From Candidatus Saccharimonadota bacterium (lineage in GTDB: Bacteria > Patescibacteriota > Saccharimonadia > Saccharimonadales > Saccharimonadaceae), in the NCBI GenBank assembly GCA_017406775.1, contig JAFQXV010000005.1:1-35700 (forward strand): a stretch of 35,700 bases of DNA, written 5' to 3'. The notes under the pieces were generated by a model that did not search any database, had not been told where the DNA came from, and saw nothing but the letters and a program-made list of their open reading frames with translations. Numbering within the stretch: the stretch's first letter is position 1; each line of letters opens with the position of its first letter. A program made the translations under genes and the position numbers. This document shows positions 20,332-33,909 of this stretch, piece by piece.

Positions 20332-20366
20332 GAGGCGCTGCCGTGGCAGCGCCTCATTTCTATTTC
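20332..20366 (+). terminator. Intrinsic terminator of the hexapeptide pair
   Basis: An 11-bp perfect stem GAGGCGCTGCC/GGCAGCGCCTC with a GT loop, followed by ATTTCTATTTC. It lies at the convergent end with trmD. Confidence 0.75.
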
Positions 20367-21109
20367 GCCTCACCAGAATGTTCATTGCGCCACTTGTTGA
20401 TTTCCCCGTGATTACCAGATAAAAGCACGTCTGGCACTTTCATGCCTCTAAAATCCTCCGGGCGTGTATACTGGGGATACTCTAGATTATTTCCATCAGA
20501 AAATGACTCAATCTCTGCGGATTGTTCCCCGCCCAGCACCCCCGGTATCAGCCTTACTATTGAATCAATAATAATCAGCGCCGGTAGTTCTCCGCCAGTC
20601 AAAATATACTTACCTAACGAAATTTTGTAATCTACTATCGAAAGAATCCGCTCGTCGTATCCTTCGTAATGCGGACACAGGATGATGTAATGTGCGAGAG
20701 GTTTTACACTGCATTCGGGGCCGCGTCCGTCCGGCCCATCGCCATGGGCGGACGGCGCTAATTCTCGCGTTGCCACGCTCCGAAATGCCCCGAATTGTAA
20801 CGCGAACTCTCTCGCCATCTCCTGATTCCAAATCTCGCCTACAGGGGTAGGAAGAATCACTTTTGCTTCTGGATCTTTAGCCTTTACAGATTCAATCGCT
20901 TCAAACACCGGCTCACAGCGGAGCAACATTCCGTCGCCACCGCCATATGGTATGTCGTCTACGGATTTGTGTGGCCCCAAGCCAAAATCCCTCAAATTCA
21001 CAAAATTAAACTCAGCGAGCTCCTTGCGGGTGGCTTTTTCCATCATTGAACTTTTTAGATACGGCTCAATCGCTTCCTGAAATAGCGTGATAATTGTGAA
21101 TTTAATCAT
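20360..21109 (-). CDS. trmD: tRNA (guanine37-N1)-methyltransferase TrmD, with an in-frame palindromic insertion
   Basis: The 249-residue product methylates G37 of tRNAs that read CNN/CGG-type codons, preventing +1 frameshifting. Diagnostic pieces are FTIITLFQEAIEPYL, DIPYGGGDGMLLRCEP, then the SAM-knot segments ILCPHYEGYDER and SLGKYILTGGELPALIIID, and PQYTRPEDFRGMKVPDVLLSG. Between ILPTPVGEIWNQ and HYIILCPHYEG lies an extra segment of about 30-40 residues (about 99-138). It is encoded by a palindromic element and is not part of TrmD as I know it from E. coli. The ATG is exactly 6 bases from TGATATAAT, so the mRNA is predicted leaderless. Confidence 0.93.
   Translation of the reverse strand: MIKFTIITLFQEAIEPYLKSSMMEKATRKELAEFNFVNLRDFGLGPHKSVDDIPYGGGDGMLLRCEPVFEAIESVKAKDPEAKVILPTPVGEIWNQEMAREFALQFGAFRSVATRELAPSAHGDGPDGRGPECSVKPLAHYIILCPHYEGYDERILSIVDYKISLGKYILTGGELPALIIIDSIVRLIPGVLGGEQSAEIESFSDGNNLEYPQYTRPEDFRGMKVPDVLLSGNHGEINKWRNEHSGEAK
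20694..20815 (-). repeat. In-frame palindromic element in trmD (family A)
   Basis: An imperfect palindrome of about 122 bp with GCGAGAG/CTCTCGC ends and inner ATTCGGGGC/GCCCCGAAT arms. It is translated as RSVATRELAPSAHGDGPDGR in the TrmD frame. The core aligns at roughly four of five bases, in the same orientation and frame, with the element in the 29768 gene. Confidence 0.8.
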
Positions 21110-21115
21110 ACTATC

Positions 21116-21124
21116 ATTATATCA
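21116..21124 (-). promoter_or_regulatory. Extended -10 promoter of trmD (leaderless)
   Basis: TGATATAAT on the minus strand, with exactly 6 bases to the ATG. Confidence 0.7.
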
Positions 21125-21171
21125 CATAACAGGCCAATGCTTGCTAGCACGATTAAAATATGTCTCTCATA

Positions 21172-21200
21172 TTGACAAAATACCATAAGTATGATACAAT
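21172..21200 (+). promoter_or_regulatory. Strong promoter of hexapeptide gene 4
   Basis: TTGACA, 17-bp spacer, TACAAT preceded by TGA (extended -10). The leader of about 80 nt includes CCGATA close to the predicted start. Confidence 0.8.
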
Positions 21201-21287
21201 TAAGGCATAACCGATATTCCACCACATAAGGGGTGTGTTATATAGTAATTTAATAGTTGGTTCATTTGTCCTTTGAAAGGGGATAAG

Positions 21288-21863
21288 ATGTCCGAGAAGA
21301 AGTACGAGTTCACCGATGAAACTATCGAAGAAGATGGCCACATCCTTCACCGAATCCGTGCCCTGCGCGACTTTGACAGTGTCCATGCTGGCGACCTCGG
21401 CGGTTACATTGAGAACGAGCGTAATCTCTCTCATGATGGAGTCTGCTGGGTCTCCGGCGATGCCTGGGTCTACGGCGAGGCTCAAGTCTCCGGCGATGCC
21501 TTGGTCTACGGCTGGGCTCAAGTCTACGACAGGGCTCAAGTCTCCGGCGATGCCTGGGTCTACGGCTGGGCTCAAGTCTACGACAGGGCTCAAGTCTCCG
21601 GCAATGCCATGGTCTCCGGCGAGGCTCAAGTCTACGGTGACGCTCAGGTCTTCGGCGAGGCTCAAGTCTACGGTGATGCCCTTGTCTTCGACGGCGCCGA
21701 GGTCTACGGCTGCGCCCGCGTCTTCGACCAAGCCCGTGTCTTCGACCAAGCCCGTGTCTTCGACCAAGCCCGTGTCTTTTATCAAGCTCGGGTTTTCTAT
21801 CGAGACGAAGTTGTAGGCGTCCGTGCCGAACGGATGCCGCCAGAAGAGCTTGAGGACAAGTAA
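21288..21863 (+). CDS. YdcK-like hexapeptide-repeat protein, paralogue 4, with recent internal repeats
   Basis: Start chosen at ATG 21288 (MSEKKYEFTDETIEE), with AAAGGGG 5 bases upstream, rather than an in-frame TTG at 21273 inside that region. The 191-residue protein has the family cap (LHRIRALRDFDSVHAGDLGG, LSHDGVCWVSG) and then very regular turns (AQVYGD, ALVYGW, AQVYDR), ending in five near-identical ARVFDQ-type turns. The repeat DNA is much more uniform than in the sister genes, so this copy has expanded recently. Predicted cytoplasmic left-handed beta-helix; function unknown. Its own promoter and terminator make it a single-gene unit. Confidence 0.8.
   Translation: MSEKKYEFTDETIEEDGHILHRIRALRDFDSVHAGDLGGYIENERNLSHDGVCWVSGDAWVYGEAQVSGDALVYGWAQVYDRAQVSGDAWVYGWAQVYDRAQVSGNAMVSGEAQVYGDAQVFGEAQVYGDALVFDGAEVYGCARVFDQARVFDQARVFDQARVFYQARVFYRDEVVGVRAERMPPEELEDK
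21483..21806 (+). repeat. Tandem 54-bp and 18-bp repeats in hexapeptide gene 4
   Basis: A 54-bp unit (three hexapeptide turns) occurs at 21483-21536, again almost identically at 21537-21590, and partly from 21591. Five 18-bp units run from 21717 to 21806; the first three are nearly identical (GTCTTCGACCAAGCCCG core). All keep the frame. Confidence 0.85.
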
Positions 21864-21868
21864 TCGAC

Positions 21869-21902
21869 AAAAAGCACCGCGCTTTTACAGGCGGTGCTTT
21901 TT
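21869..21902 (+). terminator. Intrinsic terminator of hexapeptide gene 4
   Basis: AAAAGCACCGC/GCGGTGCTTTT stem with a 10-nt loop, ending in five T. Confidence 0.85.
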
Positions 21903-21921
21903 CATGATAGAATCTCAAGAT

Positions 21922-23535
<1,614 letters not shown>

Positions 23536-23574
23536 TTAACTCAAGAAGCCATCTTAATAATCCGCTAACCAGGA

Positions 23575-24663
23575 TTAATGGATATAATTGAAGTTTCCTA
23601 CCGAACTAGCTGGGATAGTAGAGCGGATGACGCGCCAAGGAATACCGTAATTCATTTCAGATACTACGATTGAACCATCTGCATTAACGGCCTCTACGTA
23701 ACCCACGTGCCCATACCATCCTGAAGAGGTTTGAATTACAGCCCCGGCTGCAGGTGTCCGGTTTACAAGAAAACCGCGCGCTGCAGCATTACGCGCCCAG
23801 GCGTTAGCATTACCGAGATTAGAAGGTAAATCCTGGCGTTTATACCACGCCCATTGCGTACACTGGCCACCGCCATAAGGACCACCTAGATTATAGAACC
23901 AACCCACGACTTCAATATTCTGACGTTCCGAAGTACTACCCAGATAGGTGTAAGTGTAAGTATATGTAGGCCTTACTACTACCGGTGCTACATATTCTGG
24001 GCGTTCTGTTTCTGGCAAAGAACCATCCTTAATTACAATCTGCATGCCGTCAGAAATACCAGATATCTCTAAATCATTTAGGGCAATGATTTCGGCTGGG
24101 GTCGAACCATACTTGCTAGAAATAGATTCCACTGTATCACCAGATTTTACCGTATAAACGATGCCAGGGGTACTCGGTATTTTTAATACAGTGCCAGCTG
24201 CCACAGCGGTGGTTTTTAAGCCATTAGACCAGCGAATCTGATTAGCGGTAACGTTGTATTTTGCGGCAATTGTGTCAACATTCTCGCCCTCCACTACAGT
24301 ATGTTCTATTACGCCCCTAGAAACAGCAATATCTGTAATGTTAGGCTTCTCTAATTTACCAGTAGAAGTTTGGCCCGAATCGTACATTGTAGTAGTAATG
24401 ACGTAGTTAGAGGCTACGTCTGATGCGCTCGCCAAACTCAGAGCATCAGACAAATCTGCAACGGTATACAATTCTGATAGCTGATCAATTGATACATTGC
24501 TGTAATCATCTGCCGCAAAAGAGCTAAGACTTAGGTTAACATCAGAATTCTTTTTATCGATTGAACCAACAAAAACCAAGCCAAGTGTTAAAACGGCCGT
24601 AATGGCGTAAGGAAGAATACTTCTTACCTTTTGCCAGCTGATTTTTTTATCCTTCTTCGTCAT
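23575..24663 (-). CDS. Cell-wall hydrolase: membrane anchor, two LysM domains and a CHAP domain
   Basis: The 362-residue protein has an N-terminal transmembrane helix or uncleaved signal (about 14-36). Two LysM repeats follow (about 115-160, VVEGENVDTIAAKYNVTANQ; and about 168-212, TVKSGDTVESISSKYGSTPA), which bind peptidoglycan. The C-terminal CHAP domain has Cys268 (GGQCTQWAW), His319 (WYGHVGYV) and a following SEMNY, so the amidase/endopeptidase catalytic set looks complete. It should cut peptidoglycan during growth or division, outside the membrane. Its ATG overlaps the stop of ruvX-mltG by 4 bases (ATGA), indicating translational coupling with that wall enzyme. Confidence 0.9.
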   Translation of the reverse strand: MTKKDKKISWQKVRSILPYAITAVLTLGLVFVGSIDKKNSDVNLSLSSFAADDYSNVSIDQLSELYTVADLSDALSLASASDVASNYVITTTMYDSGQTSTGKLEKPNITDIAVSRGVIEHTVVEGENVDTIAAKYNVTANQIRWSNGLKTTAVAAGTVLKIPSTPGIVYTVKSGDTVESISSKYGSTPAEIIALNDLEISGISDGMQIVIKDGSLPETERPEYVAPVVVRPTYTYTYTYLGSTSERQNIEVVGWFYNLGGPYGGGQCTQWAWYKRQDLPSNLGNANAWARNAAARGFLVNRTPAAGAVIQTSSGWYGHVGYVEAVNADGSIVVSEMNYGIPWRVIRSTIPASSVGNFNYIH

Positions 24664-25988
24664 AATGATATATTACAGAGTTCCTGACAATGAGCGGAAA
24701 TATTTTGTAAATGCTCAGACTCTGTATAACTATAATACATCACACCATCGTCTCCTGTCAAGAAGTATAGATAAGCAGTATCAGTGGGATTAGCTACCGC
24801 CAGTAATGCACTTAAGCCAGGATTAGAGATAGGCCCACAGGGCAGCCCAGCATATAACCTAGTGTTATAGCAAGAATCGACCTTCAGGGCACTCTGATTG
24901 TCGGTATACGTGTGTCTATCAGGATCAATAGTGTCAAGCGCGTATGACACCGTTACGTCGCTTCCAAGGGGTATTCCGCTTTGCAATCGTGATAAAAAAA
25001 CCTGTGCTACAGTGGGCTGATCGGGGGAAGCCGCCTCTTTTTGGACTACAGAGGCTAGCGTAATTCCTTCAAACAGGGATAATCCGCGGGCGTTGTATTT
25101 TTCTTTCAAATTGTTGTTTTTAATTATCTCTTTGGTACCCTCCAAAAAACGATTTATTACATCTTTTGCAGTGTCCGTGGAATAAAATTCATGCGTTTCA
25201 CCAAACAGATATCCCTCTAGAGAGGCTCCCTCTGGACGTTCCTTTAAAAAATCATAATCGTAATTGGCTAACAATGCCCCATCTGTCTCTGATTCGGAAT
25301 ATCCAGCTTCCATCAGAGTTTTCTTGATATCAAAAATAGTTTCTCCCGGTAAAATTGTAACCGAAAACACATCAGGCTGCATCTCGGCTTCAACCTGGGA
25401 AAAATACTCGGCATATTGCTTGTAACGCTGATCTCTAATGATTAACGCTGCCGCCGTGGCCAGAAGCCCTAAAATCACAAAGATGGCGATGCCGGAAATC
25501 CACTTTGTCACTTTTTTGGTCTTAATTTTCACTTTTTTTACTTCTTTCTCTATTTTGTTGGTCTTGGTGTCCGCTTTTTGCTCTGGTTCCGTAAAATTCT
25601 CGATAAAATCTTGCAAGATGATAGAAGCGGCCTCGGCATCAATTTCGCCTTTTTCGTATTTTTTCTTTCTTTTTTTAAGCCTGGATTCGGCCTCAACAGA
25701 GGTAAGAGATTCATCCTGGAATCTAATTTTGGCGCCTGGAAATTTCTCGGTTAGGTTTTTAGCAAAATTTCGCACATACAAGGACTGTTTAGTTTCGTTG
25801 CCTTCATTGCTTCTGGGCAGACCTAGCACAAAGAAATTAGTATTGTTAAGATTGGCGATTCGAGCGATTTCCTGCCATTCTGAGCCATCTGCCAAAATAT
25901 ACCCGACTGGTACCGCAATTCGGGTACTAGAATCAACCTTGGCCACGCCAATACGCTTTTCGCCCACATCCAAACCTATAATTCGCAT
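24660..25988 (-). CDS. Fusion of RuvX/YqgF nuclease-like domain with endolytic transglycosylase MltG
   Basis: The 442-residue chain joins two proteins usually encoded separately. Residues about 1-135 are a YqgF/RuvX RNase-H-like domain (MRIIGLDVGEKRIGVAKVDS, LGLPRSNEGNET, DESLTSVEAE, then DAEAASIILQDF), which acts on pre-16S rRNA or DNA junctions in the cytoplasm. A Lys-rich linker and a transmembrane helix (about 164-186) lead to an MltG/YceG domain outside the cell (about 205-435) with Glu318 in SVVQKEAA, equivalent to the catalytic Glu. MltG cuts nascent glycan strands. Key residues of both halves are present and no frame break is seen. A GGAG site precedes the ATG. Confidence 0.92.
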   Translation of the reverse strand: MRIIGLDVGEKRIGVAKVDSSTRIAVPVGYILADGSEWQEIARIANLNNTNFFVLGLPRSNEGNETKQSLYVRNFAKNLTEKFPGAKIRFQDESLTSVEAESRLKKRKKKYEKGEIDAEAASIILQDFIENFTEPEQKADTKTNKIEKEVKKVKIKTKKVTKWISGIAIFVILGLLATAAALIIRDQRYKQYAEYFSQVEAEMQPDVFSVTILPGETIFDIKKTLMEAGYSESETDGALLANYDYDFLKERPEGASLEGYLFGETHEFYSTDTAKDVINRFLEGTKEIIKNNNLKEKYNARGLSLFEGITLASVVQKEAASPDQPTVAQVFLSRLQSGIPLGSDVTVSYALDTIDPDRHTYTDNQSALKVDSCYNTRLYAGLPCGPISNPGLSALLAVANPTDTAYLYFLTGDDGVMYYSYTESEHLQNISAHCQELCNISL

Positions 25989-26010
25989 TTTTTACTCCAC
26001 ACTCCAATTT

Positions 26011-27789
26011 TTATTCTTTTTTAGTATCTTCAGATGTGTTCTCTTCTGCGCTACCTTCCTCTTTGTCTCCATCTTCGCTTCTATTGAACGTTTGCTCTAC
26101 TTTGTTTCCGTCTTGATCCTTAATCTCGAGATTTACGGTGATCTTATTGGTGTCGCTAGGTATAGAAGTTACCCATGGGAAAGAAGTATCAATTTTAACA
26201 TCGTTCACGCCATTGATATCTTTTAGCAGATGAGTGGCGTCGCCAGTGCCATGGCCTTTAACTAAATCTACGATGCTAGCTACCGTAACCGTAGGACCAG
26301 TCATATAATTAGTTTTTAGTCTACCAGTGTAACCAGCGTCAGTTTTCAGGAAATTCTCTACAAATGGGTTTTGCATTTCGTAAATCTTGTGCCCCGCTTC
26401 AATCTTGGCTTTCTCGGCAATAAATTCTTCCACCTTTGTTTTATCTATTACGTAAACCGAAGTTGTAGTAACGGCTTTTAGTTTGGCTTTTTCACCCTCT
26501 TTTACCTCTTCACCGACGGCAGGGGTAGAGACCGCATCGGCAGTTTCCTGCTTAAAGCTGGAATCAATCACTAGCGCATCATCGCCAAGCCCTTCGTATA
26601 GTTTGGCTTTATTCTCTGATTCATTGGCAGAGCTTAATTCTCCCTTGGCCTTATCAATATCGGATTGCTGTACCACCGTGATTTCTTTATCGGTGCCGCC
26701 AGACATAGCTTTATCAGAATATGCAAAAACCCTTGCGTTAGTATCCCAACCTGTACTTGACGCAGCGATGTTGTATTTATTACCGGATTCGCTCGCAATT
26801 ACGGGAACTGTGCCATTAATTCGGCACCCGTAATCCACTAAGCCCTCGGAATTGTCCTTATTAGCGCATTCGCTTCTGCCTTCTCCACTATAAGTAAGGA
26901 CTACGCCCTTAGTGGCTTTAAACGATAATCCAGAAATAGTAAAGATTTCACCTTCGCTAATTTGCACAGAAGACTTAATATTAAGTGGAAAATATGCGTA
27001 AACGATTAGTTCCCCACTTGCCTTTTCGCCCAGGTTTTTCTTGCCCGTAGCCTCAAATTCCACCTCTTGCACCGATTCAATTTTCTTTTGATCTAGATAA
27101 AACTTACCCTCGCCAGCTTTTTCGTCGGTTAAATTGGTAGTAAAAGTGACGTTTTCAGAAAACGGATAAGAATTAGTCCTAATTCCCACCGTAATAGTAA
27201 CGGAAGGCGCAATCGCAAAGGCCCAAATCAATGCCAAAATTAGAAGTAAAGCCCCAATTCCGCCGCCAATCGTTATTTTCTTATGTTCCTTAATCCAGCC
27301 TATGATTTTATTTCCAGTTTTGGCAGTAGTACCAGATTTGGCTTTCTTGGCTTTTTCTGGCTTTACCGCTGGTTCGGCCTCTTGTGAATCTACCTCTTTG
27401 GTATCCTCAGGCGCCTCTTCGTCTTTTTCCGTCTCGTCCTCTGGCTCCTCAGTCTTTTCCGGTGTCTCTTCTACCACTTCATCGCTTTCTGAATCGTCTA
27501 ATTCTAAATCGTCGGTTGGGACAATGGGTGCAGTCTGCAAATTTTTAGCAACCGGCAGCTTAGTGGCCGCAGCGAGCTTCATAATTGAAGGGTCTGCTGT
27601 TACTAAAACTACTTTTTTATCGGCAGACGCACCAGCCTTGGAGATTAGTTTTATATTAACTACACTCCTAAAAACACCAGCCTTTTTAGGTGGTACCAAA
27701 GCTACAATCTTGGCTTTAGCATTTTCAATTTTAGTAATGATATCGGTAATATCATCTTCTGGCTCAATGTAAATTACATCTTTGTTCAT
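26011..27789 (-). CDS. Single-pass membrane protein with CPR-type N-terminal domain and baseplate-J-like external region
   Basis: Start chosen at ATG 27789 (MNKDVIYIEPEDDITDI), exactly 6 bases after TGGTATATT; a longer frame overlaps the promoter. The 591-residue product has a cytoplasmic alpha/beta domain (about 1-85, with VALVPPKKAGVF and KKVVLVTADPSIMKLA). A highly acidic linker (about 92-145) and a Lys-rich segment follow, then a transmembrane helix (about 170-192) and a beta-rich outer part with repeats like ASGELIVYAYFP. I recall such proteins, often labelled baseplate-J-like, as common in CPR genomes. Role unknown. It heads an operon with ruvX-mltG and the LysM-CHAP gene, so an envelope role is likely. 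Confidence 0.75.
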   Translation of the reverse strand: MNKDVIYIEPEDDITDIITKIENAKAKIVALVPPKKAGVFRSVVNIKLISKAGASADKKVVLVTADPSIMKLAAATKLPVAKNLQTAPIVPTDDLELDDSESDEVVEETPEKTEEPEDETEKDEEAPEDTKEVDSQEAEPAVKPEKAKKAKSGTTAKTGNKIIGWIKEHKKITIGGGIGALLLILALIWAFAIAPSVTITVGIRTNSYPFSENVTFTTNLTDEKAGEGKFYLDQKKIESVQEVEFEATGKKNLGEKASGELIVYAYFPLNIKSSVQISEGEIFTISGLSFKATKGVVLTYSGEGRSECANKDNSEGLVDYGCRINGTVPVIASESGNKYNIAASSTGWDTNARVFAYSDKAMSGGTDKEITVVQQSDIDKAKGELSSANESENKAKLYEGLGDDALVIDSSFKQETADAVSTPAVGEEVKEGEKAKLKAVTTTSVYVIDKTKVEEFIAEKAKIEAGHKIYEMQNPFVENFLKTDAGYTGRLKTNYMTGPTVTVASIVDLVKGHGTGDATHLLKDINGVNDVKIDTSFPWVTSIPSDTNKITVNLEIKDQDGNKVEQTFNRSEDGDKEEGSAEENTSEDTKKE

Positions 27790-27795
27790 ATATAA

Positions 27796-27829
27796 AATAT
27801 ACCACATTTTTTCTCGCTTGTGTTAAAAT
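27796..27829. promoter_or_regulatory. Divergent extended -10 promoters between the envelope operon and the kinase gene
   Basis: Minus: TGGTATATT (27804-27796), 6 bases to ATG 27789. Plus: TGTTAAAAT (27821-27829), 9 bases to ATG 27839. The start codons are only 49 bases apart, so the two polymerase sites overlap and may compete. Confidence 0.6.
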
Positions 27830-27838
27830 ATATGATAG

Positions 27839-29224
27839 ATGAGCCTTTTTAATCGAAGTAATGGTAAAAATACTAACGGCGAGCAATCAGCGCTTGCCGA
27901 GGTTGCTTTGCGCGCCATTCATGACGGCGTAATCATAATTGATAAGTCTGGTGTTATTAAATTTATCAACCCAGCTGCTACCAATATGACTGGTTTTGGC
28001 AATAATGCGCTTGGGCTAGATTACGGTCTGGTTATTAAGTTAGAGTCCAAGGAAGGACGCGAACTTTTCCCTAACGAGAACTTACTGGTAAATGCAATCC
28101 AATCGGGTCAGCCACTAGAGTCTTTTCAAGCCACCATCATCCCAGCTCAGTCCGACAAAAAAATCCCAGTATCGATTTCCGTAATTCCGTCTGAAGGTTT
28201 TTCTCAGGATAAAATTATCACCATTCGCAATATTGCTAAGGAGCTAGAAGGAGAAGGCGAAAAAACTGAGTTTATCTCTACCGCTTCGCACGAAATGCGT
28301 ACGCCAGTTGCCACTATCGACGGCTACCTATCTTTATGTCTCAATCCTAAAACTGCTACCATTGATGCAAGAGCCCAAGGTTATTTAACTGCTGCGCAGG
28401 CCGCCTCCAAGCATTTAGGTAAATTATTCCAAGATCTGTTAGATGTTACTAAATTAGATGATGGGCGCATCCGTCCCACCTTGCAACCAGTTGATCTAGT
28501 AAATCTAGTCAGAACAATCGCAAATGACCATCAAGAGCAAGCTAAAAACGCTAAGCTTGCCTATACGATTGGCGCCGATTCCCCTGCATCTTTTGGCGGC
28601 AACAATCTTAAACAAATCGTGTATGGTTTTGTAGACGTAAACTTTATGCGTGAAATCATGGATAATTTGATCGACAATGCTATAAAATACACGCCAGAAG
28701 GGGGCTCAATCTACGTGAATGTACGTGGCGACGGAGAGCGTGCCCTAGTCAATGTTACTGATACCGGTATCGGGATTTCAGCAGAAGATCTGGGGCATGT
28801 TTTTCAAAAGTTTTACCGAGTAGATAATTCCGATACTCGCACAAACGGTGGCACCGGGCTTGGTCTTTATCTTGTCAAGCAGCGCGCTGAGGCTATGGGC
28901 GGCAAAGTCTGGGCCGAATCGGCCTTTGGTGAAGGCTCAACGTTTTACGTATCTCTGCCACGTCTGTCTAATGACGAATATGAAAAACGTATGATCGCTG
29001 TCCGTAATCTAGAAATGCAAAAACAAGTGATGGCCACTGCACAACCTCAACTACCATCACAGCCACTAATGCAACCTCAATCACAACTACAGTCTCCGGG
29101 ACAACCTCAACCAATAACTCAAGTCACGCCTCAAATAATTCAGCCAACGCCACCCCCGGGGTCGCCTCCCATCCAATCAATGTCAAATCAAACTAATATC
29201 AACCTAAACGGAGGAGTAAAATGA
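27839..29224 (+). CDS. Soluble PAS-domain sensor histidine kinase
   Basis: The 461-residue kinase has no transmembrane segment. A PAS domain (about 22-128; IHDGVIIIDKSGVIKFINPA) senses an unknown internal signal. The HisKA dimerisation helix carries His151 in STASHEMRTP, which contrasts with the more common SHELRTP. The HATPase_c domain shows the N box (MDNLIDNAIKYTPEGG), G1 (DTGIGI) and G2 (GTGLGLYLVKQ). A Gln/Pro-rich tail of about 70 residues (from about 390) follows; its function is unknown. The stop overlaps the response-regulator ATG by 4 bases, so the two proteins are a cognate pair. Confidence 0.93.
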   Translation: MSLFNRSNGKNTNGEQSALAEVALRAIHDGVIIIDKSGVIKFINPAATNMTGFGNNALGLDYGLVIKLESKEGRELFPNENLLVNAIQSGQPLESFQATIIPAQSDKKIPVSISVIPSEGFSQDKIITIRNIAKELEGEGEKTEFISTASHEMRTPVATIDGYLSLCLNPKTATIDARAQGYLTAAQAASKHLGKLFQDLLDVTKLDDGRIRPTLQPVDLVNLVRTIANDHQEQAKNAKLAYTIGADSPASFGGNNLKQIVYGFVDVNFMREIMDNLIDNAIKYTPEGGSIYVNVRGDGERALVNVTDTGIGISAEDLGHVFQKFYRVDNSDTRTNGGTGLGLYLVKQRAEAMGGKVWAESAFGEGSTFYVSLPRLSNDEYEKRMIAVRNLEMQKQVMATAQPQLPSQPLMQPQSQLQSPGQPQPITQVTPQIIQPTPPPGSPPIQSMSNQTNINLNGGVK

Positions 29225-29796
29225 GTAAAATAATGGTAGTAGAAGATGACGCTTCGCTTCGTGAAATTTATAGTATTCGGGTAGCCGCAGAAGGCTACGA
29301 GGTAGTAAGTGCAGGTGATGGCGAGGAGGCCCTAGCTATAGCAGTGCGCGAGAAGCCAGATCTAATCTTATCGGATATTATGATGCCTAAAATTTCTGGT
29401 TTTGATATGCTAGATATTTTGAGATCAACTCCAGAAACCGCGCAAATTAAAGTCGTAATGATGACGGCACTTTCAGCGGACGACCAAAGACAACGTGGCG
29501 AGCGTCTTGGCGCAGATCGCTACTTAGTTAAATCTCAGGTCGGCATAGAAGACGTAATTAACGTTATCCACGAAGTATTGGGTGATAAAGCAGTAAGTGA
29601 GGCTGCTCCACAGCCAAACGAGGCCGCCCCACAACCAGCTGAAGCTACAACCATTCCTCAGCCGGCTGAAGCTATCCCTCAATCGGCCGAAACACCTATT
29701 CCAAACCCAGCGGCTCCCCAAATTACTGCCCCTGCTCAAAGTTTCGCATCAAATCCGCAAGTAGATTATGGACAACCAACTAATCCGGCTCAATAA
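29221..29796 (+). CDS. Receiver-only response regulator with Pro/Ala-rich tail
   Basis: The 191-residue protein has a complete receiver domain (about 1-120): acidic pocket Asp9/Asp10 (VVEDDASL), phospho-acceptor Asp52 (LILSDIMMP), Thr in MMTAL, and Lys104 (YLVKSQ). No DNA-binding or enzyme domain follows. Instead there is a tail of about 65 residues rich in Pro, Ala, Glu and Gln (PQPAEA-type repeats). It probably works by protein contact, like CheY-type regulators. GGAGGAG precedes the ATG. The 3' end overlaps the next gene by 29 bases in another frame. Confidence 0.92.
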   Translation: MSKIMVVEDDASLREIYSIRVAAEGYEVVSAGDGEEALAIAVREKPDLILSDIMMPKISGFDMLDILRSTPETAQIKVVMMTALSADDQRQRGERLGADRYLVKSQVGIEDVINVIHEVLGDKAVSEAAPQPNEAAPQPAEATTIPQPAEAIPQSAETPIPNPAAPQITAPAQSFASNPQVDYGQPTNPAQ

Positions 29797-30553
29797 ATTT
29801 TTAGCCGAGCGTTTAGGAGTTTCGCGGCGCGATGCCGACGAACTAATTTTGGCTGGCAAGATAACAGTAGACGGACGACCAGCTATATTAGGCGACAGAA
29901 TTGACAAAAATAATAAAGTATGCTATAATAATAAAGTAGTACCGCCAGTAGCGGAATTTTCTTATATTGCTTTTAATAAACCAAAAGGATATGTTTGCTC
30001 GCGACGTGCTCAGGGCGCGACTCCTACACTTTACGATTTACTGCCAAAAACTTTTACTCGTCTCAAAACTGTTGGGCGTCTCGATAAAGATTCATCGGGT
30101 CTAATTTTGCTAACCAACGACGGTGATTTTGCGTTTAGGATGACGCATCCCAAATTCCGTAAAAATAAAGTCTACGAGGTAGAATTAGACCATCCCCTGG
30201 CTCCGCTCCATCAACAGATGATTTCGGATTATGGCGTGGAAATCGGCGACGGCATCTCTAAATTTAAGATAATAAAAGATAACTCTGGGTTGCTTCCTTC
30301 GAGGGTAATTCGGAGCGCGGCAGCGCGAGAGTTAGCGCGCTCGCCCCGTGGCGACGGGCGCGAGCGACGCGACCCGAGAAAGGAAGTAACCGAGAGTTGC
30401 TACCTAGTTTTCTTGACTGAGGGTCGCAATCGTCAAATTCGTCGCACTTTTGCTGCGCTTGGTTATCAAGTAACTAAGCTCCACCGTATTCAATTTGGCA
30501 AATATGAGTTAGGAGATTTAAAACCCGGAAAATATGTTATAATAGAACCATGA
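29768..30553 (+). CDS. rRNA pseudouridine synthase (RluB/RsuA family), with an in-frame palindromic insertion
   Basis: The 261-residue enzyme has an N-terminal S4 RNA-binding domain (about 5-60; IRLNKFLAERLGVSRRDADELI). The catalytic domain contains VGRLDKDSSGLILLTNDGDFA, with the catalytic Asp in GRLDKDSSGL, and later LTEGRNRQIRRTFAALGY, a family hallmark. It isomerises a uridine in rRNA; RluB (23S) versus RsuA (16S) cannot be settled here. Residues about 172-210, just before CYLVFLTEGRNRQ, come from a palindromic element and are extra relative to the family. It overlaps the response-regulator gene, so it is translated from the same mRNA. Confidence 0.9.
   Translation: MDNQLIRLNKFLAERLGVSRRDADELILAGKITVDGRPAILGDRIDKNNKVCYNNKVVPPVAEFSYIAFNKPKGYVCSRRAQGATPTLYDLLPKTFTRLKTVGRLDKDSSGLILLTNDGDFAFRMTHPKFRKNKVYEVELDHPLAPLHQQMISDYGVEIGDGISKFKIIKDNSGLLPSRVIRSAAARELARSPRGDGRERRDPRKEVTESCYLVFLTEGRNRQIRRTFAALGYQVTKLHRIQFGKYELGDLKPGKYVIIEP
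30281..30398 (+). repeat. In-frame palindromic element in the pseudouridine synthase gene (family A)
   Basis: About 118 bp. The ends AACTCTGGGTTGCTTCCTT and, inverted, AACTCTCGGTTACTTCCTT match at 17 of 19 bases. The core is translated RSAAARELARSPRGDGRERR, in register with the TrmD insert peptide. CCCCGTGGCGACGGGCGCGA is shared almost exactly with the alaS element. Confidence 0.85.
30535..30543 (+). promoter_or_regulatory. Extended -10 promoter of the FtsA-like gene (leaderless)
   Basis: TGTTATAAT inside the end of the upstream gene, with exactly 6 bases to ATG 30550. It gives the FtsA-like gene its own start besides read-through. Confidence 0.7.
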
Positions 30554-31788
30554 GCACAATCTTAGGGTTAGATATTGGTACGGAATTTGTAAAAGCGGTC
30601 CTAGCTAAACCTACCAAAAAAGGTAAATTAGAAATCCTAGGCGTAGGTAAAGCTAAGCAAACAGATGGCAATATGCATGCTGGTGCCGTAGCAGATATCC
30701 CTGCCGTAGTGGCCGTATGTGAGGAGGCTCTTGTTAAGGCAGAGGAACAAGCCGGCGAGCGCGCCGATCTTACCGTGGTCGGTATTGCTGGAGAGCTGAT
30801 TAAGGGCAACACCACCACCGTAAACTATGCCCGCAAAAACCCTAATAAGCCCATCACTGAATCCGAAATGAACGAAATCGTCAAAAAGGTGCAGCAAAAG
30901 TCCGGTGAAGTTGCCAAAAAAACCGTTGCCCTAGAAACCGGCAATGATAATGTAGAGGTTCGTTTAATTAATTCTGCCATTGTTTCCCTCACGATTGATG
31001 GATACAAAATATCTAATCCCATCGGTTTTAAAGGTTCTGATATTGTCATTCAATTTTATACGGCCTTTGCACCGCTTATTCATGTAGCCGCTATTGAAAA
31101 AGTCTGCGCCGAGCTCAACCTAGATCTTTTAACGGTTGCCGTAGAACCGTTTGCGGTATGCCGTGCTTGCCTCGGTGATGATCTAGAATCTAACTTTTCT
31201 GGTATCGTGATGGATATTGGCGGCGGTACTACCGATATCGCCGTAGTAGAAGATGGCGGCGTGGAAGGTACTAAGATGTTTTCTATCGGCGGCCGTAGCT
31301 TCACTCATCAAATCGCCGAATCCCTAGGTGTGGATTTTGATACGGCGGAAACATACAAGCTAGATTTTGACTCTGGCAAGCTAGACGACCGTGTTAAATC
31401 TAAAGTCGAAACCGCTATTTCTCGCAACTTAAGCGTTTGGCTTACCGGCGTGGAAGTTGCTTTGGAGGATTTTGAAAATATGGGTAGCCTACCTCGTAAT
31501 GTGTTACTTTGTGGCGGGGGTGCTAGCCTATCTCTATTGCAAGAAGAATTAGCTATTTCTGATTGGTATACTAATTTGCCGTTTTCGCGTCGTCCTGTAA
31601 TCCATTTGATTGATATTAGCGAATTACCGGATTTAGTCACCGAACATTTAAATATCGAGGGCTTAAGCACTCTAGACCATTCCTTTGCAACAGCACTTGG
31701 GCTTTTGAGGGTTGGCGTAGATACTCTGGCTGGCGCCCCCGAGGAGAACAAACTCAGAGCTAAAATCGCCAAACTTTTACAAAAATAA
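30550..31788 (+). CDS. ftsA: FtsA-like actin-family ATPase (cell division)
   Basis: The 412-residue protein has the actin/HSP70 fold. PHOSPHATE1 is LGLDIGTEFVKAV (about 5-17), followed by an SHS2-like insertion (about 85-165). PHOSPHATE2 is VMDIGGGTTDIAVVEDG (near 218-234), and the adenosine motif is NVLLCGGGASLSLLQEEL (near 316-333). The C-terminus (NKLRAKIAKLLQK) looks like the amphipathic membrane-binding helix of FtsA, which tethers FtsZ filaments to the membrane. PilM of type IV pili is the main alternative, but the C-terminal helix favours FtsA. ftsZ is not in view. The ATG is 6 bases after TGTTATAAT, so the mRNA is leaderless. Confidence 0.8.
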   Translation: MSTILGLDIGTEFVKAVLAKPTKKGKLEILGVGKAKQTDGNMHAGAVADIPAVVAVCEEALVKAEEQAGERADLTVVGIAGELIKGNTTTVNYARKNPNKPITESEMNEIVKKVQQKSGEVAKKTVALETGNDNVEVRLINSAIVSLTIDGYKISNPIGFKGSDIVIQFYTAFAPLIHVAAIEKVCAELNLDLLTVAVEPFAVCRACLGDDLESNFSGIVMDIGGGTTDIAVVEDGGVEGTKMFSIGGRSFTHQIAESLGVDFDTAETYKLDFDSGKLDDRVKSKVETAISRNLSVWLTGVEVALEDFENMGSLPRNVLLCGGGASLSLLQEELAISDWYTNLPFSRRPVIHLIDISELPDLVTEHLNIEGLSTLDHSFATALGLLRVGVDTLAGAPEENKLRAKIAKLLQK

Positions 31789-31808
31789 TCTAAATACTAC
31801 CTTCAATT

Positions 31809-31838
31809 AAAAATAGCCCCACGGGGCTATTTTTTTAA
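31809..31838. terminator. Bidirectional intrinsic terminator between ftsA-like and alaS
   Basis: AAAAATAGCCCC/GGGGCTATTTTT with an AC loop and runs of A and T on both sides. It serves both convergent genes and overlaps the alaS stop. It is nearly the same sequence as the tig terminator. Confidence 0.85.
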
Positions 31839-33817
31839 TCTATTACAGCCTTTATCCTGCGTACGCCAGCCGAAGAGGATTCCTCTTTTTTAATCGTAAA
31901 ATGCCCAATTACGCCAGTATGCTCTACGTGTGGACCGCCACAAACTTCGCGAGAAATTGGCTGGTCAAAATCGCCAATCGTATAGACCTTTAATTTCTCT
32001 GGATATTTATCCCAAAATTGACCATGTGCATGGAGTTCGTTACGGGCGTAGTTCTTATCATACTCATCGTAAACTACCGGCAAGTCGGCCTTAATCCATT
32101 CATTTACTTGATCTTCGACGGCCTTTTTCTCCTCATCAGTCATTTTATGGTCTAGATTAAAGTCAAAACGTAAACGCTCAGACGTAGTATTAGAGCCCTT
32201 CTGGACAATATCAGGCGAAATTAATTTTTGCAAAGCTGCGAGTAATAAATGTGTAGCAGTATGATATTTAATGGTTGTCTCGCCGTGGTCTTCTAGTCCG
32301 CCTTTAAACATGCCTTTGGACGCAGTCTGAGAGCGCTCGCGCTGTTCCTTTAGGGCAGATTCAAATTCGGTCCGGTAATTGTCAGATAATTTAATTCCCT
32401 GGCGATAACATTCCTCAACCGATAGTTCCATCGGGAACCCATATGTATCTTGGAGTTTAAATAAATCATAGCCATTAAGGTCAAAATTAACCTCGTACGA
32501 CCCCGTTCCCTCGCGCCCGTCGTTACGGGGCTCGGTCACTTCGCTCGGGTCGTGACCCTCGCGGGGCACGGTCTCACGAGGTTTATTTTGACCTTGCGAC
32601 AATTTATGCAGTTCCCTTAACCCACGATTTAAGGTTTTTCGGAAAGCTTTTTCTTCACGGAGCATTACATCAAGTGCCATTTCGCGGTGCGTCAAAATCG
32701 AATCCGGAAGTTCCCAGTAATTCTCTGCCACAATTGGCACAATTTCGGCCAAGAAGTTATCCGAGATACCAAGATCTAGCGCGCGCAAAATTGCTCGGCG
32801 GAGTAATCTCCTCATGGCATATCCTTGAGTCTTATTGGAAGGCACTAAACCTTGTGCTGCCAGTAGATACGCTCCACGGATGTGGTCGGCAATTACCCGC
32901 ATTTCATCGGTATTATTATCATATTTTTTACCAGAAATCTCCTCTAGCTTATCAATAATCGGTTTCATCAAAGAAATCTTAAATACGTCATACGAGCCGA
33001 TTGAAGCGGCGGTAATCCTTTCTAATCCAGCACCAAAATCTACGTTTTTCTTCTGGAGTTCAGAGAACGAACCATCCTTATTGCGGCGATACTGCATAAA
33101 TACTTGGTTACCAATTTCCATAAAACGTGCGCCATCGGATGCTGGATGTGCCTTGCCATATTTAGCTTCGTCCTGTAATTCTTCGCCAAAATCATAAAAT
33201 ACTTCCGAATCTGGCCCGCAAGGATCACCAATCGGCGTAGTTTCGCAGCCACCGCCACGACTCCACCAGTTTTCATGATCATCGTAAAAGAAAATTCGCT
33301 CGCCTGGCTTAATTCCCCGTTTGTCGCCAACAGTAGCCTCGCCAATCTCAGCGATTTTGGCTTCTACGCCAGCCTCTTTAAATACTTTTTGCCAAATTTC
33401 GGCCGCTTCCGTATCTTTAGGAATGCCGTATTTTTTGTTACCGATAAAACAAGTTACGTAAATTTTATTTGGGTCTAGCCCTACTTCTTCGGTTAAAAAT
33501 TTAAAGAAATTGCGGATTTGTTCTTCTTTAAAGTAATCCCCTAGTGACCAGTTGCCAAGCATCTCAAACACTGTAGTGTGACGCGGATCACCAACATCCT
33601 CAATATCTTGCAGTCTCATCGATGGCTGCGAATCGCAGAGTCTAGTACCTAGCGGATGTTCTTTACCAAGTAAGTACGGTAAAAGCGGCTGCATTCCGGA
33701 ACCAGTAAATAGGGTAGTTGGGTCCCCCTCCAGCACTAACGGCGCCGGCTGAATCACTTTGTGCCCATTTTTTTCCTGAAAATCTAGAAATTTTTGTCTA
33801 ATCGTATTTGCATCCAT
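31835..33817 (-). CDS. alaS: Alanyl-tRNA synthetase, short form without C-Ala, with an in-frame palindromic insertion
   Basis: Start chosen at ATG 33817 (MDANTIRQKFLDFQEKNGHKV), 7 bases after TATAAT; the longer frame would include the promoter. The 660-residue enzyme charges tRNA-Ala. It has the class II core (VFEMLGNWSLGDYFKEE, GGCETTPIGDPCGPDSE, ENFGAGLER-like VDFGAGLERI), then the helical tRNA-binding region. The editing domain has HTATHLLLAAL and CGGPHVEHTG, the metal-binding His and Cys/His sites. It ends there, so the usual C-terminal DHHA1/C-Ala domain (full-length enzymes are near 875 residues) is missing. An extra segment (about 409-446) before NFDLNGYDLFKL is encoded by a palindromic element. 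Confidence 0.93.
   Translation of the reverse strand: MDANTIRQKFLDFQEKNGHKVIQPAPLVLEGDPTTLFTGSGMQPLLPYLLGKEHPLGTRLCDSQPSMRLQDIEDVGDPRHTTVFEMLGNWSLGDYFKEEQIRNFFKFLTEEVGLDPNKIYVTCFIGNKKYGIPKDTEAAEIWQKVFKEAGVEAKIAEIGEATVGDKRGIKPGERIFFYDDHENWWSRGGGCETTPIGDPCGPDSEVFYDFGEELQDEAKYGKAHPASDGARFMEIGNQVFMQYRRNKDGSFSELQKKNVDFGAGLERITAASIGSYDVFKISLMKPIIDKLEEISGKKYDNNTDEMRVIADHIRGAYLLAAQGLVPSNKTQGYAMRRLLRRAILRALDLGISDNFLAEIVPIVAENYWELPDSILTHREMALDVMLREEKAFRKTLNRGLRELHKLSQGQNKPRETVPREGHDPSEVTEPRNDGREGTGSYEVNFDLNGYDLFKLQDTYGFPMELSVEECYRQGIKLSDNYRTEFESALKEQRERSQTASKGMFKGGLEDHGETTIKYHTATHLLLAALQKLISPDIVQKGSNTTSERLRFDFNLDHKMTDEEKKAVEDQVNEWIKADLPVVYDEYDKNYARNELHAHGQFWDKYPEKLKVYTIGDFDQPISREVCGGPHVEHTGVIGHFTIKKEESSSAGVRRIKAVID
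32479..32593 (-). repeat. In-frame palindromic element in alaS (family A)
   Basis: About 115 bp. The ends GGTCAAAATTAACCTCGT and inverted GGTCAAAATAAACCTCGT match at 17 of 18 bases. Inner hairpin GGTCAC/GTGACC. Sense strand CCCCGTAACGACGGGCGCGA differs from the 29768-gene element by two bases and is read in the same frame (PRNDGRE versus PRGDGRE). Confidence 0.85.
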
Positions 33818-33824
33818 AGGCTCA

Positions 33825-33830
33825 ATTATA
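33825..33830 (-). promoter_or_regulatory. -10 element of alaS
   Basis: TATAAT on the minus strand, 7 bases from ATG 33817. It lacks the TG extension. Confidence 0.55.
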
Positions 33831-33909
33831 CTATTTTCTGCCTGTTTCCGCAAACCACACCAGCAAATTGAGGGTTGCTCAAAACTATTCCGTTTTTCGC
33901 CACATTGTC

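Follow-up and report, generated by a model that had tools for sequence, protein, structure and literature searches.

Three genes in a 35,700-nucleotide stretch of DNA from a Candidatus Saccharimonadota bacterium (the window, which is the entire 35.7-kb contig C1 of a 14-contig, 720-kb genome, G000) carry palindromes within their coding sequence: trmD, an rluB-type pseudouridine synthase gene and alaS. These three palindromes are members of one dispersed palindromic family, of which 34 copies were counted in the genome, and the outer half of each palindrome consists of arms that differ by copy and are not family sequence. We consider it somewhat better than an even bet, at a probability of roughly 0.55, that the family represents multi-copy palindromic insertion elements that are tolerated in coding sequence and whose arms are made and kept by replication template switching.

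The palindromes extend over about 20693-20816 in trmD, 30281-30398 in the pseudouridine synthase gene and 32477-32595 in alaS, and the host frame is open through all three. None of 200 dinucleotide shuffles equalled the fold of any of them (z values and further coordinates are given in Table 1). An earlier note on this DNA, made from the letters alone, had reported palindromes in these genes, and all three were found where it placed them. It had also held that they encode a related peptide and form a single family, a point on which a core pattern, blastn and a covariance model agree; the peptides it quoted are correct, and the common orientation and frame that it described for the trmD and pseudouridine synthase elements are those of all three window copies.

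The covariance model, R1, rests on 13 main-subtype copies and a structure written by hand. RNAalifold, applied to an initial alignment of 25 copies, recovered the second hairpin alone, probably because subtypes had been misaligned. The R1 search of G000 returned 33 copies at E≤1, three of which are weak matches (E 0.08-0.14: the second argS copy, valS and rlmD); together with C4:577, which came from the core pattern, they form the working set of 34. A 15-base core pattern, with at most two mismatches allowed, gave 26 matches at 23 places in the genome, compared to four matches for the reversed control, and blastn with the rluB copy as query gave 23 matches at E≤10, part of them short. The core is about 75 nt long and comprises two hairpins, with a short terminal stem closing the pair. 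In an alignment of 66 distinct rows that had been fitted to R1, paired cells reached 92.6%, versus 74.4% in shuffles and 31-42% in slid controls, and double changes numbered 265 versus 105 in shuffles. The subtypes are distinguished by the first hairpin: in the second subtype, that of alaS, it is longer, while the second hairpin is unchanged. Four copies (ligA, uvrD, RNA methylase and one intergenic) have an additional hairpin nested in the second one. Palindrome lengths determined automatically for 30 copies range from 91 to 231 nt, the longest being a fold that extends into the flanks.

Twenty-five of the 34 copies lie in coding sequence, each within a long open frame, and the other nine are intergenic, so that in-frame insertion in genes, as described in the earlier note, holds for the former and not for the latter. 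The host genes are topA, truB, the rluB-type gene, trmD, a P-type ATPase gene, an nrdG-like gene (at the N-terminus), tlyA, lepA, dus, uvrD, an RNA methylase gene, ligA, tsaD, argS (two copies), ileS (two), alaS, leuS (two), der, uvrB, valS, rlmD and mnmA; the names come from inspection of translations, with a database search for the window genes only. The nrdG-like gene overlaps the end of the preceding gene, and its copy (L091:1478-1580) occupies the first codons, where it may supply the beginning of the protein. Among the intergenic copies are one upstream of rnpB, one ahead of a tRNA gene and one near an L10 leader. The possibility that the first of these is an insertion within the RNase P RNA was discarded, Rfam placing the copy outside; in the Rfam search of the nine intergenic loci and the window, no family reached its gathering score over the elements.

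An anchor motif made it possible to assign the reading frame of 23 of the 25 coding copies. The fixed frame claimed in the earlier note had to be abandoned: the main frame is used by 11 of the 23 assigned copies, seven lie in the other two sense frames (five and two), five are antisense, and two further copies are without assignment. What stood of that interpretation is the single family, insertion in frame, the existence of more copies, and empty sites for trmD and the rluB-type gene. The idea that the element is pre-adapted to coding was dropped, because its core is not unusually free of stops: the open fractions of the other frames (0.56 for coding copies versus 0.62 in shuffles, and 0.50 versus 0.58 for non-coding ones) do not exceed those of shuffles. 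An AlphaFold model of TrmD was weak (mean predicted local distance difference test score 63.7) and set the insert, 106-136, at low confidence between a helix and a strand; the inserts are presumably translated and would be sited in a surface loop. A general inverted-repeat scan (score at least 14) found 14 coding repeats in 383 kb of genus sequence from five genomes versus one in 180 kb from two control genomes, a result that is supportive only.

Empty alleles of several of these sites are found in relatives. Orthologues in sister genomes are shorter by about 96 nt at the insert site of trmD and by about 108 nt at that of the rluB-type gene, and the TrmD orthologues of sister species run uninterrupted across the site; empty sites were also aligned for leuS, ligA and argS. 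The three relatives searched for alaS yielded no empty orthologue, two having a model match in the gap and one lacking a match to the segment; at this place a solved AlaRS is about 32 residues shorter (12 residues, compared with 44 here), the downstream anchor stretch of this comparison being weak (7.5 bits). The orthologue alignments suggested in the earlier note have thus yielded sister species with empty sites for two of the three window genes. In all 17 filled/empty pairs that were re-examined (mostly trmD and obg, with a few sites not identified), the length difference is a multiple of three, from 69 to 132 nt; an intergenic pair, by contrast, differs by 121 nt. The empty alleles do not contain the palindrome. 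Their best inverted-repeat score is 6-16 in the 17 pairs, and the arms of the filled partners score 19-35 in 16 of them and 10 in the last. An alignment of G060 and G061 over 67 kb contained no presence/absence difference.

Different inserts enter the same places. Among 80 loci, the best of 216 hits obtained with an insert-containing query, the loop of trmD forms a hot spot: it is empty, or filled with the main family in either orientation, or filled with one of several different inserts. The C-terminal site of obg likewise holds the main family in L240 and L244 and, judged by neighbouring protein sequence, a different palindrome in the window, so that several families share an insertion locus at both sites. 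This fourth coding palindrome of the window (23151-23235) belongs to a different family and lies in obg (Pfam GTP1_OBG), close to the position that L240 and L244 fill with the main family; its peptide can be compared with PSTGQHRAQARLGDE in trmD of L189 and L195. The obg gene of G000 also contains a short near-palindrome at window 22446-22473 (L050:3584-3611; CGAGGATATTCCTCG on the other strand), where a relative has an element. Its inverted-repeat score of 13 is no higher than those of other empty alleles, and it may be a deletion scar, that is, a case of element loss. In obg of G065, a 75-nt palindrome (L255:17311-17382) lies within the loop of an older element and is absent from G063 (93.7% identity). 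This insert has a 5-bp direct repeat, GACGG, at its borders, plus an inverted GACGG copy inside, and is compatible with the action of a transposase as well as with template switching.

Around the core, most copies have an outer arm of about 11-45 nt, whose sequence differs between nearly all copies of G000. In 24 of the 34 copies the left and right arms of the same copy pair with a higher score than all 1122 mismatched pairings, and 31 exceed the 95% level, those below it being trmD, tsaD and the second argS copy. In trmD the pairing is now degenerate (score 16, for a 95% level of 17). The gene-5' arm of this copy is probably host sequence, because it encodes AREFA, which empty TrmD orthologues keep; the gene-3' arm is without counterpart in the aligned empty orthologues. 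At one and the same site, both arms change jointly between species and stay matched within each. At the trmD site (n=17, L192 and L202 being excluded because their insert belongs to another subtype) the mean score of a copy's own arms is 23.9 versus 11.9 for crossed arms, and at the obg site (n=15) 25.6 versus 11.3; in neither case did any of 20,000 permutations reach the observed value. Smaller trmD subsets gave 157 of 20,000 permutations (n=5) and 5 of 20,000 (n=8). Arm homogenisation, as expected of template-switch dynamics, is thus found at two sites, where repeated insertion could produce it as well.

Comparison with empty alleles suggests where the arms come from. In obg, the empty L234 contains one arm of the filled L192 at 19 of 20 bases and the other at 3 of 20; for the filled L224 and the empty L215 the figures are 14 of 19 and 0 of 19. 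The empty allele contains 17 of 27 versus 2 of 27 arm bases in the pair L201/L190, a site without gene identity, and 11 of 16 versus 4 of 16 in the trmD pair L177/L218. In these clearest cases, one arm is of host origin and the second is a copy of it in inverted orientation.

The element can also be turned around where it stands. The obg genes of L240 and L244, from regions 94.5% identical over 6.6 kb, contain the same element in the C-terminal Obg domain in opposite orientations. Inverting a 118-nt segment raises the alignment score to 704, versus 550 for the direct alignment; the best inverted piece takes in the inner arms, both reading frames are open, and the protein flanks are nearly identical. 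This element has clearly been inverted in place, in frame. In trmD, L174 and L178 (flanks 93% identical) have cores that are 51% identical directly and 86% identical when one is inverted, and here too inversion in place probably occurred; two separate insertions are a possible alternative, since the second hairpins differ. The finding that 48 of 48 opposite-strand trmD pairs are more alike when inverted was not retained as evidence, because the strand assignment of the model produces it. Spacer inversion, the other feature expected of template-switch dynamics, is therefore present in the obg pair and probable in the trmD pair.

These observations suggest the following course of events. The 3' end of the element would fold back onto its own 5' end and prime synthesis along the adjacent host strand, and this would turn one flank into an inverted copy of its counterpart. 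The same template switching would keep the arms matched over time and would now and then flip the element in place. Copies would survive in variable stretches of proteins if their length is a multiple of three and they bring no stop in the host frame, and those that survive in coding sequence would add about 30-40 residues. New loci may be reached through a trans-acting transposase or through long-range template switching, and elements would be lost by deletion. Template switching has been described as a process that creates and maintains hairpins (PMC8794818). We prefer it as the probable source of arm creation and upkeep, because the combination of arm homogenisation and spacer inversion is its published signature (PMC8604942). 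A bolder version makes the element a self-templating, invertible, selfish coding palindrome. Upon its insertion or later it would copy the adjacent host strand into its arm by fold-back and from then on maintain the match; by the same route it would flip between unrelated in-frame peptides within essential proteins, no dedicated recombinase being needed, and template switching alone might suffice for its spread. This we regard as a tentative idea, well short of an even chance.

Several observations weigh against the creation and upkeep of arms by template switching. In the comparison of best pairs, 18 of 43 filled copies are one-sided by at least seven bases and for the other 25 no clear side emerged; averaged over all empty relatives, the one-sidedness is often small, and the favoured arm is inconsistent within a site (obg of L174 versus L178, trmD of L177 versus L184). 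In tlyA (95% identical flanks) and obg (94.8%), where G065 and G063 are compared with G064, the empty allele is without either arm, as it is in an intergenic pair (83.8% identity). For tlyA we infer that the allele of G064 has been replaced, because one flank falls to 81% identity and G000 is filled near the same place. The argS (C12:99844) and valS (C12:66601) copies of G000 have much of both arms in common, their left arms being alike at 20 of 22 bases, the single clear case in 1122 comparisons; arms may therefore sometimes travel with the element between loci. For the second subtype R1 stops within the element, so that a few element bases are counted as arm. Matched arms could also arise from selection for a hairpin, or from repeated independent insertion at one site. 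Finally, the arm and inversion comparisons were made between consensus assemblies, and the inversions are seen between genomes, none within one strain.

The shared arms of argS and valS would be natural for miniature inverted-repeat transposable elements (MITEs), moved by a trans-acting transposase, which either used pre-existing palindromes as targets or carried the arms along. Such elements would also account for the uniform core with terminally inverted ends and for the GACGG direct repeat that flanks the nested obg insert of G065 relative to the uninterrupted allele. Pre-existing palindromes are, however, missing from the 17 empty alleles, and the arms, dissimilar in almost all copies, co-vary within a site from species to species, so that we hold this explanation to be doubtful, though not one to be set aside lightly. 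The earlier note had offered mobility as an inference, and copy number and empty sites now back it; the domains searched, RAYT and reverse transcriptase, pointed to no enzyme that would move the element. The RAYT-type Y1 transposase (PF01797) is absent from G000, other transposase families not having been searched, and among 40 genomes of the genus it occurs in one, which is 7% contaminated. A reverse transcriptase (RVT_1) is encoded in 26 of the 40, including G000, which has three such domains (C12:125651-126346, C13:136450-137067 and C2:50124-50732). It is not required, because five genomes without RVT_1 (G003, G004, G018, G041 and G042) have 15-19 copies each.

Known invertases use fixed sites. 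An intragenic inverton, in which a recombinase acts on the arms as recombination sites and inversion is a regulated switch, would explain the coding copy that is inverted in place with both orientations open, together with the second, probable case. Arms that differ by copy, and inversions that have been seen between genomes, none within a strain, make it improbable. The strong covariation of the core could be taken to mean that selection acts on an RNA, as an mRNA hairpin, a processing site or a segment that is removed from the message or skipped in it; this is still harder to credit, given that copies lie in both orientations relative to genes, are inverted in place and occur between genes, and that host frames are open, which would be needless under removal or ribosome skipping. 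As for native extensions of the protein families, or an assembly artefact, the empty sites in sister species refute them, and the presence of one DNA family in unrelated genes, with matches in records from several sequencing projects, leaves virtually nothing in their favour. The preferred explanation remains an insertion element in which template switching produces and maintains the arms.

The family appears to be confined to a limited group of Saccharibacteria. The search of relatives by covariance model, also suggested in the earlier note and made with R1, matched 35 of 36 same-genus genomes at E≤0.01 and none of 24 genomes from other families of the order. In a class-wide sample, searched at E≤0.001 with stricter filters and few candidates scored for each genome, 79 of 294 genomes matched, all in one Saccharibacteria family; 66 of them are among the 75 genomes listed for the same genus, and the other 13 belong to four further genera. 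The named records with TrmD homologues are Saccharibacteria, chiefly from ruminant gut, including Candidatus Nanosyncoccus alces. Carriage by phages was considered and set aside, the exact core pattern being present in four viral contigs, of which R1 matches one only, weakly (19.1 bits).

The closest known counterparts are the Rickettsia palindromic elements (RPEs), to which the earlier note had compared the window palindromes. RPEs and the Wolbachia repeats are described as 100-150-bp palindromes of several families that lie in genes without loss of frame, and the same loci are repeatedly entered by different families (PMC3767692). The parallel is upheld: the 34 copies are dispersed palindromes of this kind and size, several families occur, insertion is in frame and loci recur. 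The Saccharibacteria family differs in belonging to another phylum and in using several frames and both strands. As far as the descriptions drawn on here go, it differs also by in-place inversion and co-varying arms, neither of which is part of those RPE accounts. Protein-coding palindromes have been recorded in Rickettsia, Wolbachia and one archaeon, Methanocaldococcus jannaschii, whose stand-alone palindromic repeats have coding potential (cited in PMC2996958) and are like the present family in that respect, the archaeal host being different. In nematomorph mitochondria, inverted repeats within genes have arms that are kept matched, with template switching as one possible cause (PMC6649704); unlike the Saccharibacteria elements, they have conserved residues in both arms, and no repeated core family figures in the part of that report cited here. 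REPs (repetitive extragenic palindromic sequences) are also dispersed palindromes, but they are shorter, at 20-40 bp (PMC3733652), and extragenic by name, and the Y1 transposase domain of the REP/RAYT system is missing in G000. The quasipalindromes attributed to template switching share arm homogenisation and spacer inversion with the present family, and the sections of those papers used here deal with mutations at inverted repeats that are scattered, and not with mutations that surround a dispersed family of repeats (PMC8604942, PMC8794818).

The Saccharibacteria element is thus a new family of protein-coding palindromic repeats, in another phylum, with no fixed frame, with inversion and with co-varying arms. 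Among the papers listed, no such family in Saccharibacteria or Patescibacteria was evident from titles and abstract openings. How protein-coding palindromes spread is, to our knowledge, an open question. Dozens of species of the genus have been sequenced, several of them with tens of copies in each genome; with both filled and empty alleles and with inversion available, the birth, upkeep and loss of an element become testable there. Normally essential enzymes (aminoacyl-tRNA synthetases, TrmD, TopA and Obg) repeatedly accept inserts of 30-40 residues, which are a source of protein novelty within very small genomes.

Table 1. Coordinates of host genes, element cores and arms in the window, and of a second repeated core elsewhere
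Feature	Position	Strand	Remarks
trmD, host gene	20360..21109	-	Pfam PF01746, E 6.7e-47
Element core in trmD, two hairpins, orientation that of the gene	20715..20793	-	R1 77.8 bits; fold z -5.5
trmD copy, gene-5' arm	20794..20816	-	encodes AREFA retained by empty TrmD orthologues
trmD copy, gene-3' arm	20693..20714	-	degenerate; in part a 5'-arm copy in inverted orientation
rluB-type pseudouridine synthase gene, host	29768..30553	+	Pfam PF00849 and PF01479
Element core in rluB-type gene	30300..30378	+	R1 79.2 bits; fold z -8.3
rluB-type copy, 5' arm (AACTCTGGGTTGCTTCCTT)	30281..30299	+	complementary to 3' arm at 17/19 bases
rluB-type copy, 3' arm	30379..30398	+	arm-pairing comparison
alaS, host gene	31835..33853	-	Pfam PF01411, E 2.1e-105
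Element core in alaS, second subtype	32498..32569	-	R1 32.9 bits, E 1.2e-05; fold z -6.1
alaS copy, gene-5' arm	32570..32595	-	26-nt arms 88% complementary; arm score 35
alaS copy, gene-3' arm	32477..32497	-	arm-pairing comparison
CACTCAAGGCCGTTCGGCC core	L143:1190-1208, L169:1712-1730, L172:1689-1707		

Other repeats were noticed in the course of this work. A different repeated core, CACTCAAGGCCGTTCGGCC, occurs in three genes: mnmA of G000 and, in G007, ligA and argS. The window also contains two intergenic palindromes, at 147-247 and 328-458, that R1 does not match; the latter is made up in part of repeated GGTGCCAT motifs, which are likewise found in an intergenic region of G063.

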